Assembly: GCA_018241685.1 (NCBI GenBank)
Contig: JAFEDJ010000020.1
Span: forward strand, 1 to 64,000
Source: Pseudomonadota bacterium
Lineage (GTDB): Bacteria > Pseudomonadota > Gammaproteobacteria > Burkholderiales > Rhodocyclaceae
Reading direction: 5' to 3'
Length of the DNA: 64,000 nt
The notes beneath the pieces are model-generated. The model had not been told where the DNA came from. It saw only the letters and a list, made by a program, of their open reading frames with translations, and searched no databases. Position numbers and translations under genes: made by a program. This document shows, one piece after another, positions 1-5,302 of the stretch; the first letter of the stretch is position 1, and each line of letters starts with the position of its first letter.

Positions 1-696
1 CCATTTTGCGGCAGCGCGAACCTCGAAAGCGGCGGCGATGACAAGATCGTCGCTGTCCGATGCCGCGATTGCGAGGCGACCGGGCCGAACCACTACGGTT
101 CGCGCGCAGAGTGGAATACCCGCTCCCTCCATCTCCCCGAGCCGCAGACCGCGCCTGACGAGATTTGCATTTTGTGCGCAAACGGGAACGATTTGCCTGA
201 GGGCGAAACTTGTCCTGGATGCAAGAGGGCTGGACATGCTGTTGGTTTAGCGGCTGCGGTCATCAAAGCGCGCGGACGCAATAAACCGCCGTCCACACCC
301 GTTAAATTCGGTGCCGCCCCCGCCGATGCCGAGCGGCTGGCGCTGGCGGAGAGGATCGAGAAGCACGTCAACGTCATGGCGAATACCTCGATGCACCTTT
401 CGCTCGAACAATGGGGTGACATCGCCAACGATCTGCTCACGGCTTCTGCCGCGCTCCGCGCCGGGGGCTGGCGCGAGGATATGGAGAATGGGCGGCACGG
501 TTTCATCGTATCGAGCGCGGATGAGAAGCGATTCCGATTTTGGGATGCGATGGGTCCAACATGGACAACTGATCGCGTTCGCGCTCTCCGCTTCGCACGC
601 CGGATCGATGCGGAGCGGTTTGCCGCCGAAGATGAGGATGCGTGGAAAATCCTTGAAGTCGTCCCCTCCGCCCCGCACACAGACAAGGAGGGGTAG
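1..696 (+). CDS. Lar-like restriction alleviation protein, 5' partial
   Basis: The reading frame is open at the left edge, so the start codon lies outside the window; 231 residues are visible. The first residues read PFCGS, then CRDCEATGP and EWNTR, the signature of Lar-family zinc-ribbon proteins, which modulate type I restriction in lambdoid phages. A second C-x2-C pair-of-knuckles (CILC and CPGC) follows near residues 57-75. The rest, up to a polar C-terminus, has no recognised domain and may be a separate phage module fused to the zinc ribbon. The stop sits one base before the GTG of the methyltransferase downstream, so the two are probably cotranscribed. An anti-restriction role fits that neighbour but is inferred from family resemblance. 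Confidence 0.6.
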   Translation, partial: PFCGSANLESGGDDKIVAVRCRDCEATGPNHYGSRAEWNTRSLHLPEPQTAPDEICILCANGNDLPEGETCPGCKRAGHAVGLAAAVIKARGRNKPPSTPVKFGAAPADAERLALAERIEKHVNVMANTSMHLSLEQWGDIANDLLTASAALRAGGWREDMENGRHGFIVSSADEKRFRFWDAMGPTWTTDRVRALRFARRIDAERFAAEDEDAWKILEVVPSAPHTDKEG

Positions 697-697
697 A

Positions 698-1903
698 GTG
701 AATGTGGCTCTACGTCCCGACAGCATCAACCTTATCTCTCTCTGCACAGGCGGAGCCGGGCTCGATCTCGGAATCGAGTTGGCAATGCCAAACGCTCGCT
801 CTGTCGTGCTCGTGGAGAGGGAAGCCTTCGCCGTCTCTCACTTGGTCGCGGCGATGCAACAAGGTCTCCTGGCTCCAGCTCCTTTGTGGAGTGATGTCAC
901 CACCTTCAACGGCAGACCATGGCGTGGCCTCGTGGATGGCGTCATTGGCGGAATCCCGTGCCAGCCTCACAGCCTCGCTGGAAAACGTCTCGGTGAAGAC
1001 GACGAGCGCGACCTCTGGTCCGATGCTAGGCGCATCATCGTCCAGTCCGGCGCGTGGTTTGTCCTCATCGAAAATGTCCGCGGCATGGTCACGTCGGGAG
1101 GTTTCGAGCGCGTATGGAGAGACCTTCGCCGGCTTGGTTTCGAGGTTGAGCCGGGACTGTTTACAGCGGCAGAAGTCGGCGCGTCGCACCAGCGGGAGCG
1201 GCTGTTCATCCTCGCAGTGGCCGACCGCGAATGCGGCGAGTGGCGGCCCCGATCGGAAGCGACGCGACAGCGATGCTCCAAACTCTACCCTTTCGACAGC
1301 GGCAGCGATGTGGGGAACACCGACCACGCGAGACTGGAAGGACACCGGCAATCTGGAGAACGTGCCGGAGAACGGCCTGCTGGGCCCGAACCAGAATTTC
1401 GGAGCAGGCGGGATTCCGTTGCCGGCGCAAGCAGCGCAATGGGCCACGCCATGCGCAAGGGACCACATGCCGCCACACAGCCCGGAATATATCGCGGCGA
1501 AGAAAGCCGACGGTCACGGCATGAAAATATTGCCGGACCAGGTCCAGCAATGGCCGACGCCAACGTCGTTGAGCTACGGCGAGAGCCATCAGCCGAGCAA
1601 CTCGCGCAGCTACAATCTGACGATGGATATGGCGAAGGATATTTATTCCCGCCTGGCCCATCCGACTTACACGGTTGGCGAAACGTCCTCGCATCCGCGC
1701 CGGAGCTTGAACCCGCTTTTCGTCGAGTGGCTGATGGGCTGGCCTCTCGGCTGGACATTGCTCGCGTGGACCGACTTCGGATGCTCGGCAACGGAGTTGT
1801 TCCACTGGAAGCAGCGTATGCGGTTCGCACTCTCGCAACTCGACTTGCACGACGCTCCCCCGGCGCAGAACGACTTGTTCGCATGATGAGGACCACCCCA
1901 TGA
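698..1903 (+). CDS. C5-type DNA cytosine methyltransferase
   Basis: This 401-residue enzyme should transfer a methyl group from S-adenosylmethionine to C5 of cytosine in phage DNA. Motif I (SLCTGGAGLDLG, residues 14-25), the catalytic PCQ loop (GGIPCQPHS, Cys88), ENV (residues 125-127) and QRERLF (165-170) are all present, and RLRMLGNGVVP near residue 360 matches the C-terminal motif. The GTG start at 698 was chosen because AAGGAGGGG lies just upstream and the motif-bearing frame begins there. The region between QRERLF and LGNGVVP is variable, and the same DNA is also open in the +1 frame (see 1212-1886). The stop overlaps the ATG of the next gene. It probably protects phage DNA against host restriction. 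Confidence 0.85.
   Translation: MNVALRPDSINLISLCTGGAGLDLGIELAMPNARSVVLVEREAFAVSHLVAAMQQGLLAPAPLWSDVTTFNGRPWRGLVDGVIGGIPCQPHSLAGKRLGEDDERDLWSDARRIIVQSGAWFVLIENVRGMVTSGGFERVWRDLRRLGFEVEPGLFTAAEVGASHQRERLFILAVADRECGEWRPRSEATRQRCSKLYPFDSGSDVGNTDHARLEGHRQSGERAGERPAGPEPEFRSRRDSVAGASSAMGHAMRKGPHAATQPGIYRGEESRRSRHENIAGPGPAMADANVVELRREPSAEQLAQLQSDDGYGEGYLFPPGPSDLHGWRNVLASAPELEPAFRRVADGLASRLDIARVDRLRMLGNGVVPLEAAYAVRTLATRLARRSPGAERLVRMMRTTP
1212..1886 (+). other. Alternative +1 reading frame inside the C5 methyltransferase
   Basis: In the frame one base ahead of the methyltransferase the DNA reads WPTANA, then WGTPTTRDWKD, then LNPLFVEWLMGWPLGWT followed by CSATELFHWKQRMR. From memory, these phrases are typical of phage proteins annotated as methyltransferase C-termini or hypothetical proteins, which contain W-P-T-P and EWLMG-P-GWT blocks. 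The canonical frame over the same bases also carries family-like sequence (EPAFRRVADGLASR and RLRMLGNGVVP). The frame could be entered by +1 frameshifting after QRERLF or by internal initiation at ATG 1308, but no convincing ribosome-binding site precedes 1308. Whether it is translated is unknown. Confidence 0.4.
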
Positions 1904-3883: not shown

Positions 3884-4068
3884 CGGAAGCCGATGAGATC
3901 GCGGAGAGCCTGATCCGTAAGCACGGGAATCCCAAAACTCGAATGTGGGGAAGTGCCAGAGAGTGGATCCTGACCGTCTGGCCCGATGCCCGCGTGCAGA
4001 TCGGCGACCAGATGCTCTCCAACGTTGCTGAGAGTGTCGTGGCGCAAGCGAAAGGCAATCGATCATGA
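3880..4068 (+). CDS. Small hypothetical protein
   Basis: 62 residues, with ATG overlapping the previous stop (ATGA). It reads MTEADEIAESLIRKHGN, then RMWGSAREWILTVWPDARVQIGDQM. Its pattern loosely resembles the C-terminus of the minus-strand protein at 62935-63243 (MWPEAKVLVR), so the two may be distant relatives; this is a weak similarity. Function unknown. Confidence 0.6.
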   Translation: MTEADEIAESLIRKHGNPKTRMWGSAREWILTVWPDARVQIGDQMLSNVAESVVAQAKGNRS

Positions 4069-5111
4069 CTGGCCGCCCCATCCTTTTCTCCGCCCCGATG
4101 ATCCGCGCCATCATCCGCGAGATCGAGAACCCCGGCACCGGCAAGACCGAGACGCGGCGCATCTTGAAGCCGCAGCCGCGCATCCGTCCCGAGATCGCAG
4201 ACGGATTCCTCGTGGTCTATGACGGCGACCGAGTTGCCGGTCGCCAGCGGCTCCGCTACGCGCCCGGCGACCGGCTGTGGGTGAGACACCGGTCAGACAT
4301 CTTTTCCGTTTATTTTAAGCCGATTCCGGGATGGGAGGGGTTATATGCCGCAGGCACAGACGGACAGATTTATCGCATGGATCGCGGTACTCCGTGTCCA
4401 TTGTCTGGCACCCCGTCAAGTAAGGGGTATTTGACGGTCTCTCTTAGCCGTAGTGGTGGATGGACAACATATTCCGTGCATCGGCTGGTATGCGAAGCGT
4501 TCTACGGGCCGCCGCCGTTTGAAGATGCCCAGGTGCGTCACCTTGACGGCGTAAAAAACAACAATACGCCAGAGAATCTTGATTGGGGAACGCAGGCCGA
4601 TAATTGGCAGGATAGAAAGTCACACGGACGCGGCATGGGCGCAGATCACCATGCGGCTAAATTGAGCGCGGCTGACGTTGAAGTCATCCGCGTTTCAGCC
4701 GAATCCCAGCGCGTTTTAGCAACGAAATTCGGCGTGTCTCAGTCCACGATAGGGAGCGTAAAGAACGGCCAGACGTGGGGAACCCACTTGGTCGGCGAGC
4801 GCCGCATGCCCGCATTTAAGATGTGGAAGCCTTCAATCCACATGCCACGTTGGGCGTCCCGCATCACGCTCATTGTCGAGGTCGTGAAGGTCGAGCGCCT
4901 GCAGGAGATCAGCGAGGAGAGCGCAATGCGCGAAGGCGCTGCGCCGGTCCTTGTCCCGCCGGACGGCGGCGGCGCACCGCACGTCGAAGGCTTCCGGGAT
5001 ATTTGGACCGCCATCAACGGCGCCGCGTCGTGGGACGCAAACCCATGGGTCGCCGCGATCCGCTTCCGCCCGTACCTCTGCAACATCGACCAGATGAAGA
5101 ATGGCGCATGA
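4065..5111 (+). CDS. ASCH-like phage protein interrupted in frame by an HNH endonuclease
   Basis: 348 residues in one uninterrupted frame. Residues 1-76 (RPILFSAPMIRAI, TRRIL, YAPGDRLWV) and about 244-348 (PSIHMPRWASRITLIVE, ERLQEISEESAMREG) are the two halves of the ASCH-fold protein common in phage genomes, which usually has about 180 residues. Between them lie a NUMOD4 motif (KPIPGWEGLYAAGTDGQIY), an HNH core (VHRLVCEAF, VRHLDGVKNNN, NLDWGT) and a helix-turn-helix (GVSQSTIGSVKNGQTW). ASCH proteins are thought to bind RNA or modified nucleotides. Splitting the fold may abolish that unless the insert is removed or folds as an independent loop. The start overlaps the preceding stop (ATGA). 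Confidence 0.8.
   Translation: MTGRPILFSAPMIRAIIREIENPGTGKTETRRILKPQPRIRPEIADGFLVVYDGDRVAGRQRLRYAPGDRLWVRHRSDIFSVYFKPIPGWEGLYAAGTDGQIYRMDRGTPCPLSGTPSSKGYLTVSLSRSGGWTTYSVHRLVCEAFYGPPPFEDAQVRHLDGVKNNNTPENLDWGTQADNWQDRKSHGRGMGADHHAAKLSAADVEVIRVSAESQRVLATKFGVSQSTIGSVKNGQTWGTHLVGERRMPAFKMWKPSIHMPRWASRITLIVEVVKVERLQEISEESAMREGAAPVLVPPDGGGAPHVEGFRDIWTAINGAASWDANPWVAAIRFRPYLCNIDQMKNGA
4293..4793 (+). mobile_element. In-frame HNH homing endonuclease insertion
   Basis: Residues 77-243 of the protein at 4065 form a complete NUMOD4-HNH-helix-turn-helix homing endonuclease. The bases here are visibly richer in A and T than the flanking ASCH coding sequence (TTTTCCGTTTATTTTAAGCC near the left edge), as expected for recently acquired DNA. 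Boundaries are estimated from where ASCH motifs stop and resume. I see no intein splice residues (no Cys or Ser at the left edge, no His-Asn plus Cys, Ser or Thr at the right). There is also no obvious room for a group I intron core. Confidence 0.7.
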
Positions 5112-5302
5112 CCTATCGATCGCCGGGGCAGATCGCCTACGAAAAAGAACTGGAAACTGTGCCAAAATACCACGATGGTACGCCCCGACGCCCGTGGGGG
5201 GAGCTTGGACCGGCAGCCCGTCTGTCATGGGAGAAGAACCCCACACCGCGTTGGAAGCTGCCGGGGACGGCACAGGCCGTAACGAAGGGGGATTCGAGAT
5301 GA
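5108..5302 (+). CDS. Small conserved phage protein (PG-AYE...NPTPRW type)
   Basis: 64 residues, starting at the ATG that overlaps the previous stop (ATGA). It has the recurring phage pattern PGQIAYEKEL, YHDGTPRRPWGELG, SWEKNPTPRW. These short proteins are common beside ASCH proteins and are of unknown function. It is soluble and has no cysteines. Confidence 0.7.
   Translation: MTYRSPGQIAYEKELETVPKYHDGTPRRPWGELGPAARLSWEKNPTPRWKLPGTAQAVTKGDSR

Follow-up and report, generated by a model that had tools for sequence, protein, structure and literature searches.

Homing endonucleases are expected in introns, in inteins or in intergenic gaps, where they spare the gene that hosts them. The stretch of DNA analysed here (64,000 nucleotides, hereafter the window) carries such an endonuclease in the middle of a protein-coding gene and in the same frame, which raises the question of whether it is removed from the host product, marks a decayed gene, serves a joint function with its host or is kept as a domain of the host protein. 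The chimeric gene runs from an ASCH-like half through a NUMOD4-HNH-HTH endonuclease to a second ASCH half, with the following parts:

4065..5111, + strand: entire chimeric ORF (348 aa and a stop codon)
4065..4286, + strand: ASCH N-terminal part, residues 1-74, ending in GDRLWVR (phrog_874, aligned region)
Codons within 4143-4160, + strand: K27, T30 and R32, aligning weakly with catalytic K21, T24 and R26 of E. coli YqfB
4287..4313, + strand: nine-residue stretch HRSDIFSVY, which has no counterpart in most other chimeras
4314..4445, + strand: NUMOD4 motif, residues 84-127 (Pfam PF07463, E 6e-4, slightly below the curated cut-off)
4473..4604, + strand: HNH nuclease motif, residues 137-180 (Pfam PF13392, HNH_3, E 1.3e-12; phmmer to I-HmuI, 1u3e, E 2.4e-10)
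4662..4793, + strand: helix-turn-helix portion closing the endonuclease, roughly residues 200-243 (HTH_3 E 0.05 at 214-237, below cut-off; model helices 202-210, 215-222 and 226-233)
4794..4817, + strand: flexible linker, residues 244-251 (low model confidence; pLDDT <50 at 244-257)
4818..5108, + strand: ASCH C-terminal part, residues 252-348, starting with KMWKPSIHMPRWASRI (phrog_874)
4932-4934, + strand: E290, matching YqfB catalytic E74 by motif

The host halves match phrog_874 with an E value of 2e-47 and the middle part matches HNH families (phrog_59, E 1.8e-45). A model that had seen only the letters (the sequence-only reading) had described an HNH lying in frame inside an ASCH-like protein, with GDRLWVR before the insert and KMWKPSIHMPRWASRI after it, and both the junction peptides and the stop-free frame are as it stated, the order of parts recurring in six further ORFs. 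It had also placed the endonuclease at 4293-4793; the end of this span stands, while its start falls inside the nine-residue stretch, the endonuclease proper extending over residues 84-243, or about 4314-4793. HRSDIFSVY, in which an H takes the place of the E of the host WVRE motif, may be either a remnant of the host or the start of the module. The insert is indeed richer in A/T than its host, as had been noted, with a GC content of 0.555 (GC3 0.58) against 0.685 (0.88) and 0.640 (0.81) in the two host parts.

The ORF is embedded in a phage-type block of genes by ATGA overlaps at both ends: the stop of the preceding gene occupies 4066-4068, and the TGA of the chimera overlaps the ATG of the next gene at 5108. 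Portal, head protease and major head genes lie downstream, and the window therefore carries a prophage or phage. PADLOC found homing endonuclease models only, and a defence system was rejected as an explanation on these grounds. Elsewhere in the window (311-1903, + strand), DNA methyltransferase families are matched in two frames that overlap: the ORF at 311-1900 matches phrog_363 (E 5.5e-44), and the ORF at 702-1883 matches phrog_27243 (E 3.2e-27) and phrog_1008 (E 1.7e-17, profile positions 43-279), the last part of phrog_1008 (287-324) being matched by the first frame. Either one gene has been broken by a frameshift or the stretch is coding in both frames.

An HMM scan with the two host parts and the HNH, in which each ORF of the window and of 345 fetched loci was searched, returned 11 ORFs with all parts, of which 7 are distinct and 4 are repeats. 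Besides the window, the distinct chimeras, each with both ASCH parts and the HNH in one frame, comprise a gene of Aeromonas phage ST4, four IMG/VR contigs and a genome from the same bacterial family as the window, and these six rule out a one-off or an assembly error. The ST4 gene (ST4_051) was the one record covering at least 80% of the protein among the 1693 matched by tblastn in a phage collection; alignments that included it led to the IMG/VR chimeras L033, L146, L147 and L148 (L149 and L150 are L147 and L148 again and were counted once); and a profile search of whole genomes, with any match in 43 of 395, yielded L327 (genome G946) in addition to the window. No chimera was seen in the other genome searches (matches in 18/199, 10/369 and 42/398 genomes of overlapping sets, with the best places only taken as loci), nor among the 11 relatives from one scan of genome contigs when these were passed through the later HMM scan; a first viral scan with the single window protein gave no relative, and the plasmid search gave no place covering 80% of the protein. 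Chimeras were used to build the queries that found these ORFs, which tilts the sample towards the HNH lineage of the chimeras themselves.

Other HNH genes were encountered near ASCH genes among the fetched loci. In Myxococcus phage Mx8 (1605-2832 of the locus) a free-standing HNH gene lies directly behind an intact ASCH-type gene, and the same is seen behind an intact ASCH-type gene on an Acinetobacter baumannii plasmid (L131, 1153-2306); these two HNHs group together in a clade (100/99) that is separate from the chimera HNHs. A viral contig (L180, 1925-3070) carries another kind of NUMOD4-HNH, joined to the initial 12 residues of an ASCH gene; a complete ASCH ORF lies behind it, and the endonuclease thus borrows the start of its neighbour. 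An HNH ORF occurs in the fetched flank of 8 of 155 ASCH loci, a count to be taken as a lead only. In Escherichia phage BUCT618 an HNH-like frame (1004-1597 of the locus, + strand) lies opposite the annotated large terminase gene. In our literature search, which covered few subscription journals, an HNH inside an ASCH gene was not recognised in any paper.

The endonuclease was read from the sequence as a homing-type nuclease of NUMOD4-HNH-HTH order, and this identification is sound: the parts occur in that order and the HNH residues are intact, as in the I-HmuI type of NUMOD4-HNH homing endonucleases, with the NUMOD4 and HTH matches below Pfam cut-offs. H159, N167 and N171 are conserved in six chimeras (alignment A6) and, by eye, in L327. 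In the predicted (AlphaFold) model of the chimera (pLDDT 83.9, pTM only 0.61, the model possibly weakened by alignment A7, which was made for it and put the host WVRE block on the chimera HNH), residues 82-191 match I-HmuI with a Z score of 13.6, a likeness of fold that accompanies that of sequence. I-HmuI is encoded in the group I intron of SPO1. It is read from within a self-splicing intron, whereas the endonuclease of the chimera is a domain of the host protein with no intron signal.

The ASCH assignment of the host is supported by the predicted structure and by catalytic-type residues, and weakly by the Pfam ASCH model, which matches 6 of 30 homologues (best E 0.001); the host alignment gave no credible match when searched against the sequences of solved structures. 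In the predicted chimera model the two host parts together match E. coli YqfB (9kyh; Z 9.2 over 84 residues, rmsd 2.8) and further ASCH-type structures (Z 8.7 for 3s9x, and 7.8), and a host model without the insert (pLDDT 76.3) finds ASCH structures at Z up to 6.7. The available text of PMC9599836 gives K21, T24, R26 and E74 as the catalytic residues of YqfB. With K, T and R aligned to YqfB by a weak hhalign match and E placed by motif only, the K, R and E are present in all seven chimeras and the T in six, L146 having lost it together with other conserved host residues. The chimera resembles YqfB and its relatives (9kyh, 3s9x) in the predicted fold of its joined host parts and, tentatively, in these residues, and differs in that a 160-residue endonuclease stands where YqfB has a short hairpin turn. 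Most host-invariant residues outside the loop at this position are conserved in the chimeras, and the ASCH fold is probably intact with its loop gone. The suggestion that the host fold tolerates the domain as a loop agrees with the predicted model, in which the ASCH fold closes around the endonuclease.

What happened to that loop can be judged from alignment A6 and the sequences, rather than from A7. In 204 uninterrupted ORFs, 33-138 residues (median 59.5) separate the two host HMM matches; a WVRE-like motif is present in 198 of these (the pattern may also be hit at another point of the sequence), and all 45 aligned homologues have its E. This motif is lacking in six chimeras. The host ends at GDxL and restarts at N(I/M)PR in ST4, L033, L147 and L148, and the edges in L146 are GDALW and NAPRW. 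The Klebsiella phage genes L346 and L347, which share about 70% identity with the ST4 gene in the C-terminal part, have 74 residues where ST4 carries the endonuclease, and L148 has an uninterrupted relative in L222 (71% over 85 columns), with two 5' blastn matches between them and a 3' edge that was set by eye. In the window, WVR is followed by H for E upstream and the downstream edge is KMWKPSIHMPRW, up to about 25 residues lying beyond clear host or module, so that slightly more host is kept on each side and the loss is less clear-cut than in the other loop-replacing chimeras. The exception is L327, where the module sits further upstream, between CPYG and PGQRLWVREAW, and the entire loop is kept after it; its end, PPPNMPR, resembles the L033 edge PAPANMPR, and the NMPR residues that flank the module in L033 and L147 are thus also carried by the L327 module.

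Alignment with uninterrupted ASCH homologues, which the sequence-only reading had proposed as a check, finds that most of the chimeras have lost the host loop, which is not merely interrupted. The host had been described as split by an insertion; this holds for L327, a clean insertion, and has to be amended for the other six, in which the endonuclease appears to replace the loop.

The same result bears on whether the endonuclease is excised, since an unrecognised intron, an intein-like splicing event or translational bypass might restore the ASCH protein. Such excision could draw on the open frame on both sides of the endonuclease, with no stop or frameshift in any of the seven chimeras, and on L327, where precise removal would give a normal ASCH protein. 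However, the other six hosts, the window included, would be left with neither loop nor WVRE motif, and because the loop is replaced in these six, precise splicing or bypass could not restore a normal host. About 480 of the 528 bases of the insert are endonuclease, which leaves little room for a ribozyme. A covariance-model match to a self-splicing intron had been named as a further check, and group I and group II introns were set aside after an Rfam scan of 4000-5200 (run without a positive control) gave 0 matches at E<=10; an intein was set aside likewise, as the Pfam scan at E<=1 listed only HNH_3, NUMOD4 and two HTH families, with no Hint or intein family, in agreement with the absence of splice signals seen earlier. 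The proposal that an unrecognised mechanism removes the insert thus fits badly, and we regard excision as very improbable. Two other loci (L295 and L142) have HNHs in long ORFs with flanks that look intein-like by eye, in contrast to the unspliced chimera.

If the endonuclease is retained, its relationship to its hosts can be examined by comparing the histories of the two parts. A careful HNH tree (34 rows) places the seven chimera HNHs on one side of a branch, with support of 89/87, below our starred level, and in 88% of bootstrap trees. In the corresponding ASCH tree, whose 37 rows were chosen to take in, for every chimera, the five uninterrupted relatives closest to it, and some of which are long branches, seven changes are needed, at least five of them forced by starred branches, and a single clade of chimera hosts occurs in 0% of bootstraps. 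Constraining the seven hosts to one clade is rejected (p-AU 3.7e-9), as is constraining ST4 and L033 alone (p 0.016). Larger quick trees give 2 changes for the HNH (101 rows; 0 of 500 shuffles as low) and 7 for the ASCH part (180 rows), the latter no better than shuffled and in agreement with the 37-row tree. In all seven cases the nearest relative of the ASCH part is an uninterrupted ASCH protein and that of the HNH is the HNH of another chimera. ST4 and L033 are 83% identical in the HNH and 48-52% in the host parts, with third codon positions about equally diverged throughout (identity 0.45 in the HNH, 0.42 and 0.40 in the host parts), and therefore no transfer can be called recent or dated. 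Trees and nearest-relative comparison together indicate that the HNH spread independently of the host gene, and point to an endonuclease that has moved repeatedly, entering ASCH genes of divergent sequence in a shared region.

Scatter on the ASCH tree would fit any recombination, and the ASCH loop may be a variable module that phages exchange through ordinary recombination in the conserved blocks flanking it, the HNH being one loop among many and its nuclease activity perhaps of no consequence for its spread. The 33 to 138 residues of the loop in uninterrupted ORFs suit this account, the flanking blocks rank among the best conserved parts, and recombination at GDxLWVRE and MPRWASR could move the module without any cutting. 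Yet H159, N167 and N171 are conserved in all chimeras. An exchange from block to block does not produce the arrangement of L327, where the loop is retained and the module lies at another site slightly upstream, and ASCH genes have also attracted HNH genes unrelated to the module (Mx8, the Acinetobacter plasmid, L180). We therefore consider loop exchange without homing unlikely.

The chimera could also be a two-part enzyme in which the ASCH part reads a modified base and the HNH cuts, in the manner of modification-dependent restriction enzymes of the PUA superfamily, and which a phage or prophage would use against rivals. A precedent is VcaM4I, which in the available text of PMC7897488 joins a PUA-superfamily domain (EVE) and an HNH in one chain, as in the chimera, and the available text of PMC11037411 lists ASCH domains alongside the PUA superfamily among potential modified-base readers; moreover, the YqfB-type residues persist as described, and at the identities given above for ST4 and L033 both parts look maintained. 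As described there, however, the domains of VcaM4I stand in tandem with a linker helix, and the tandem sensor-plus-nuclease layout of these enzymes is not that of the chimera, where the HNH is nested and brings its own NUMOD4 and HTH DNA-binding parts. With the HNH scattered over unrelated ASCH hosts, the nearly invariant WVRE motif gone and PADLOC recognising homing endonuclease models alone, a two-part enzyme seems decidedly unlikely.

Loss of WVRE, the missing catalytic-type T and other host residues of L146 and a GC content unlike that of the host gene could equally signal a decayed or accidental fusion in which one or both parts no longer function. Against this stand seven ORFs free of stops and frameshifts, the two compared (ST4 and L033) despite saturated third positions, together with the conservation of the nuclease residues and, beyond the loop, of most residues that are invariant in the host, and of all the explanations considered we find decay the hardest to credit.

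We thus favour, as reasonably probable, the explanation that a NUMOD4-HNH-HTH homing endonuclease forms an internal, in-frame and unremoved domain of a phage ASCH-type protein, having spread by loop-replacing homing. Translation of the nuclease would begin at the start codon of the host gene, with the chimera as its product, since in the window no start codon is seen before NUMOD4 and no stop after the HTH. The ASCH beta-barrel would fold as a discontinuous domain around it, the insertion point being a hairpin that is predicted to correspond to the very short one of E. coli YqfB and to the long and variable one of phage relatives. In uninterrupted ASCH genes the nuclease would cut close to the GDxLWVRE block, which is conserved, and repair from the chimeric copy would swap out the loop of the recipient and bring the endonuclease in. 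Such a model would account for the replaced loop, for in-frame edges that stay constant and for the presence of one endonuclease lineage over unrelated ASCH hosts.

The closest parallels come from mycobacteriophage DNA methylases, as described in the available excerpts of Gosselin 2023 (PMC9957025) and Arsenault 2025 (PMC11855218). There, a lone LAGLIDADG endonuclease forms its own domain in the predicted methylase structure and appears to be vertically inherited, and the ShiLan element has an HNH out of frame with its methylase host, the in-frame reading being disordered, and a patchy distribution over divergent hosts. As far as these excerpts go, both share with the chimera a homing-type endonuclease in a non-essential phage gene, with the frame left open and no intron or intein signal. 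The chimera resembles ShiLan in lacking a splicing signal and in its patchy spread over divergent hosts, and departs from the excerpts' account of it in that its HNH is in the host frame; from both methylase cases, as excerpted, it differs in being in frame and at the same time on unrelated hosts, in its ASCH host and in the replacement of a host loop. It thus joins two traits seen apart in these systems, being both in frame and mobile.

More tentatively, at somewhat less than an even chance, these chimeras may represent a class of splice-free homing endonucleases that spread as exons, each copied as a folded domain that replaces a surface loop, so that homing would act as an engine of domain insertion across divergent phages; L327, with its second site and its retained NMPR, would then be the trace of a jump from site to site. 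Production of the nuclease from the host start codon would avoid the expression problem which, in the excerpts available, is left open for the out-of-frame ShiLan element. If this explanation is true, an endonuclease lineage has become a lasting domain of its host protein while still mobile, which would constitute a direct route for a selfish element to insert protein domains.
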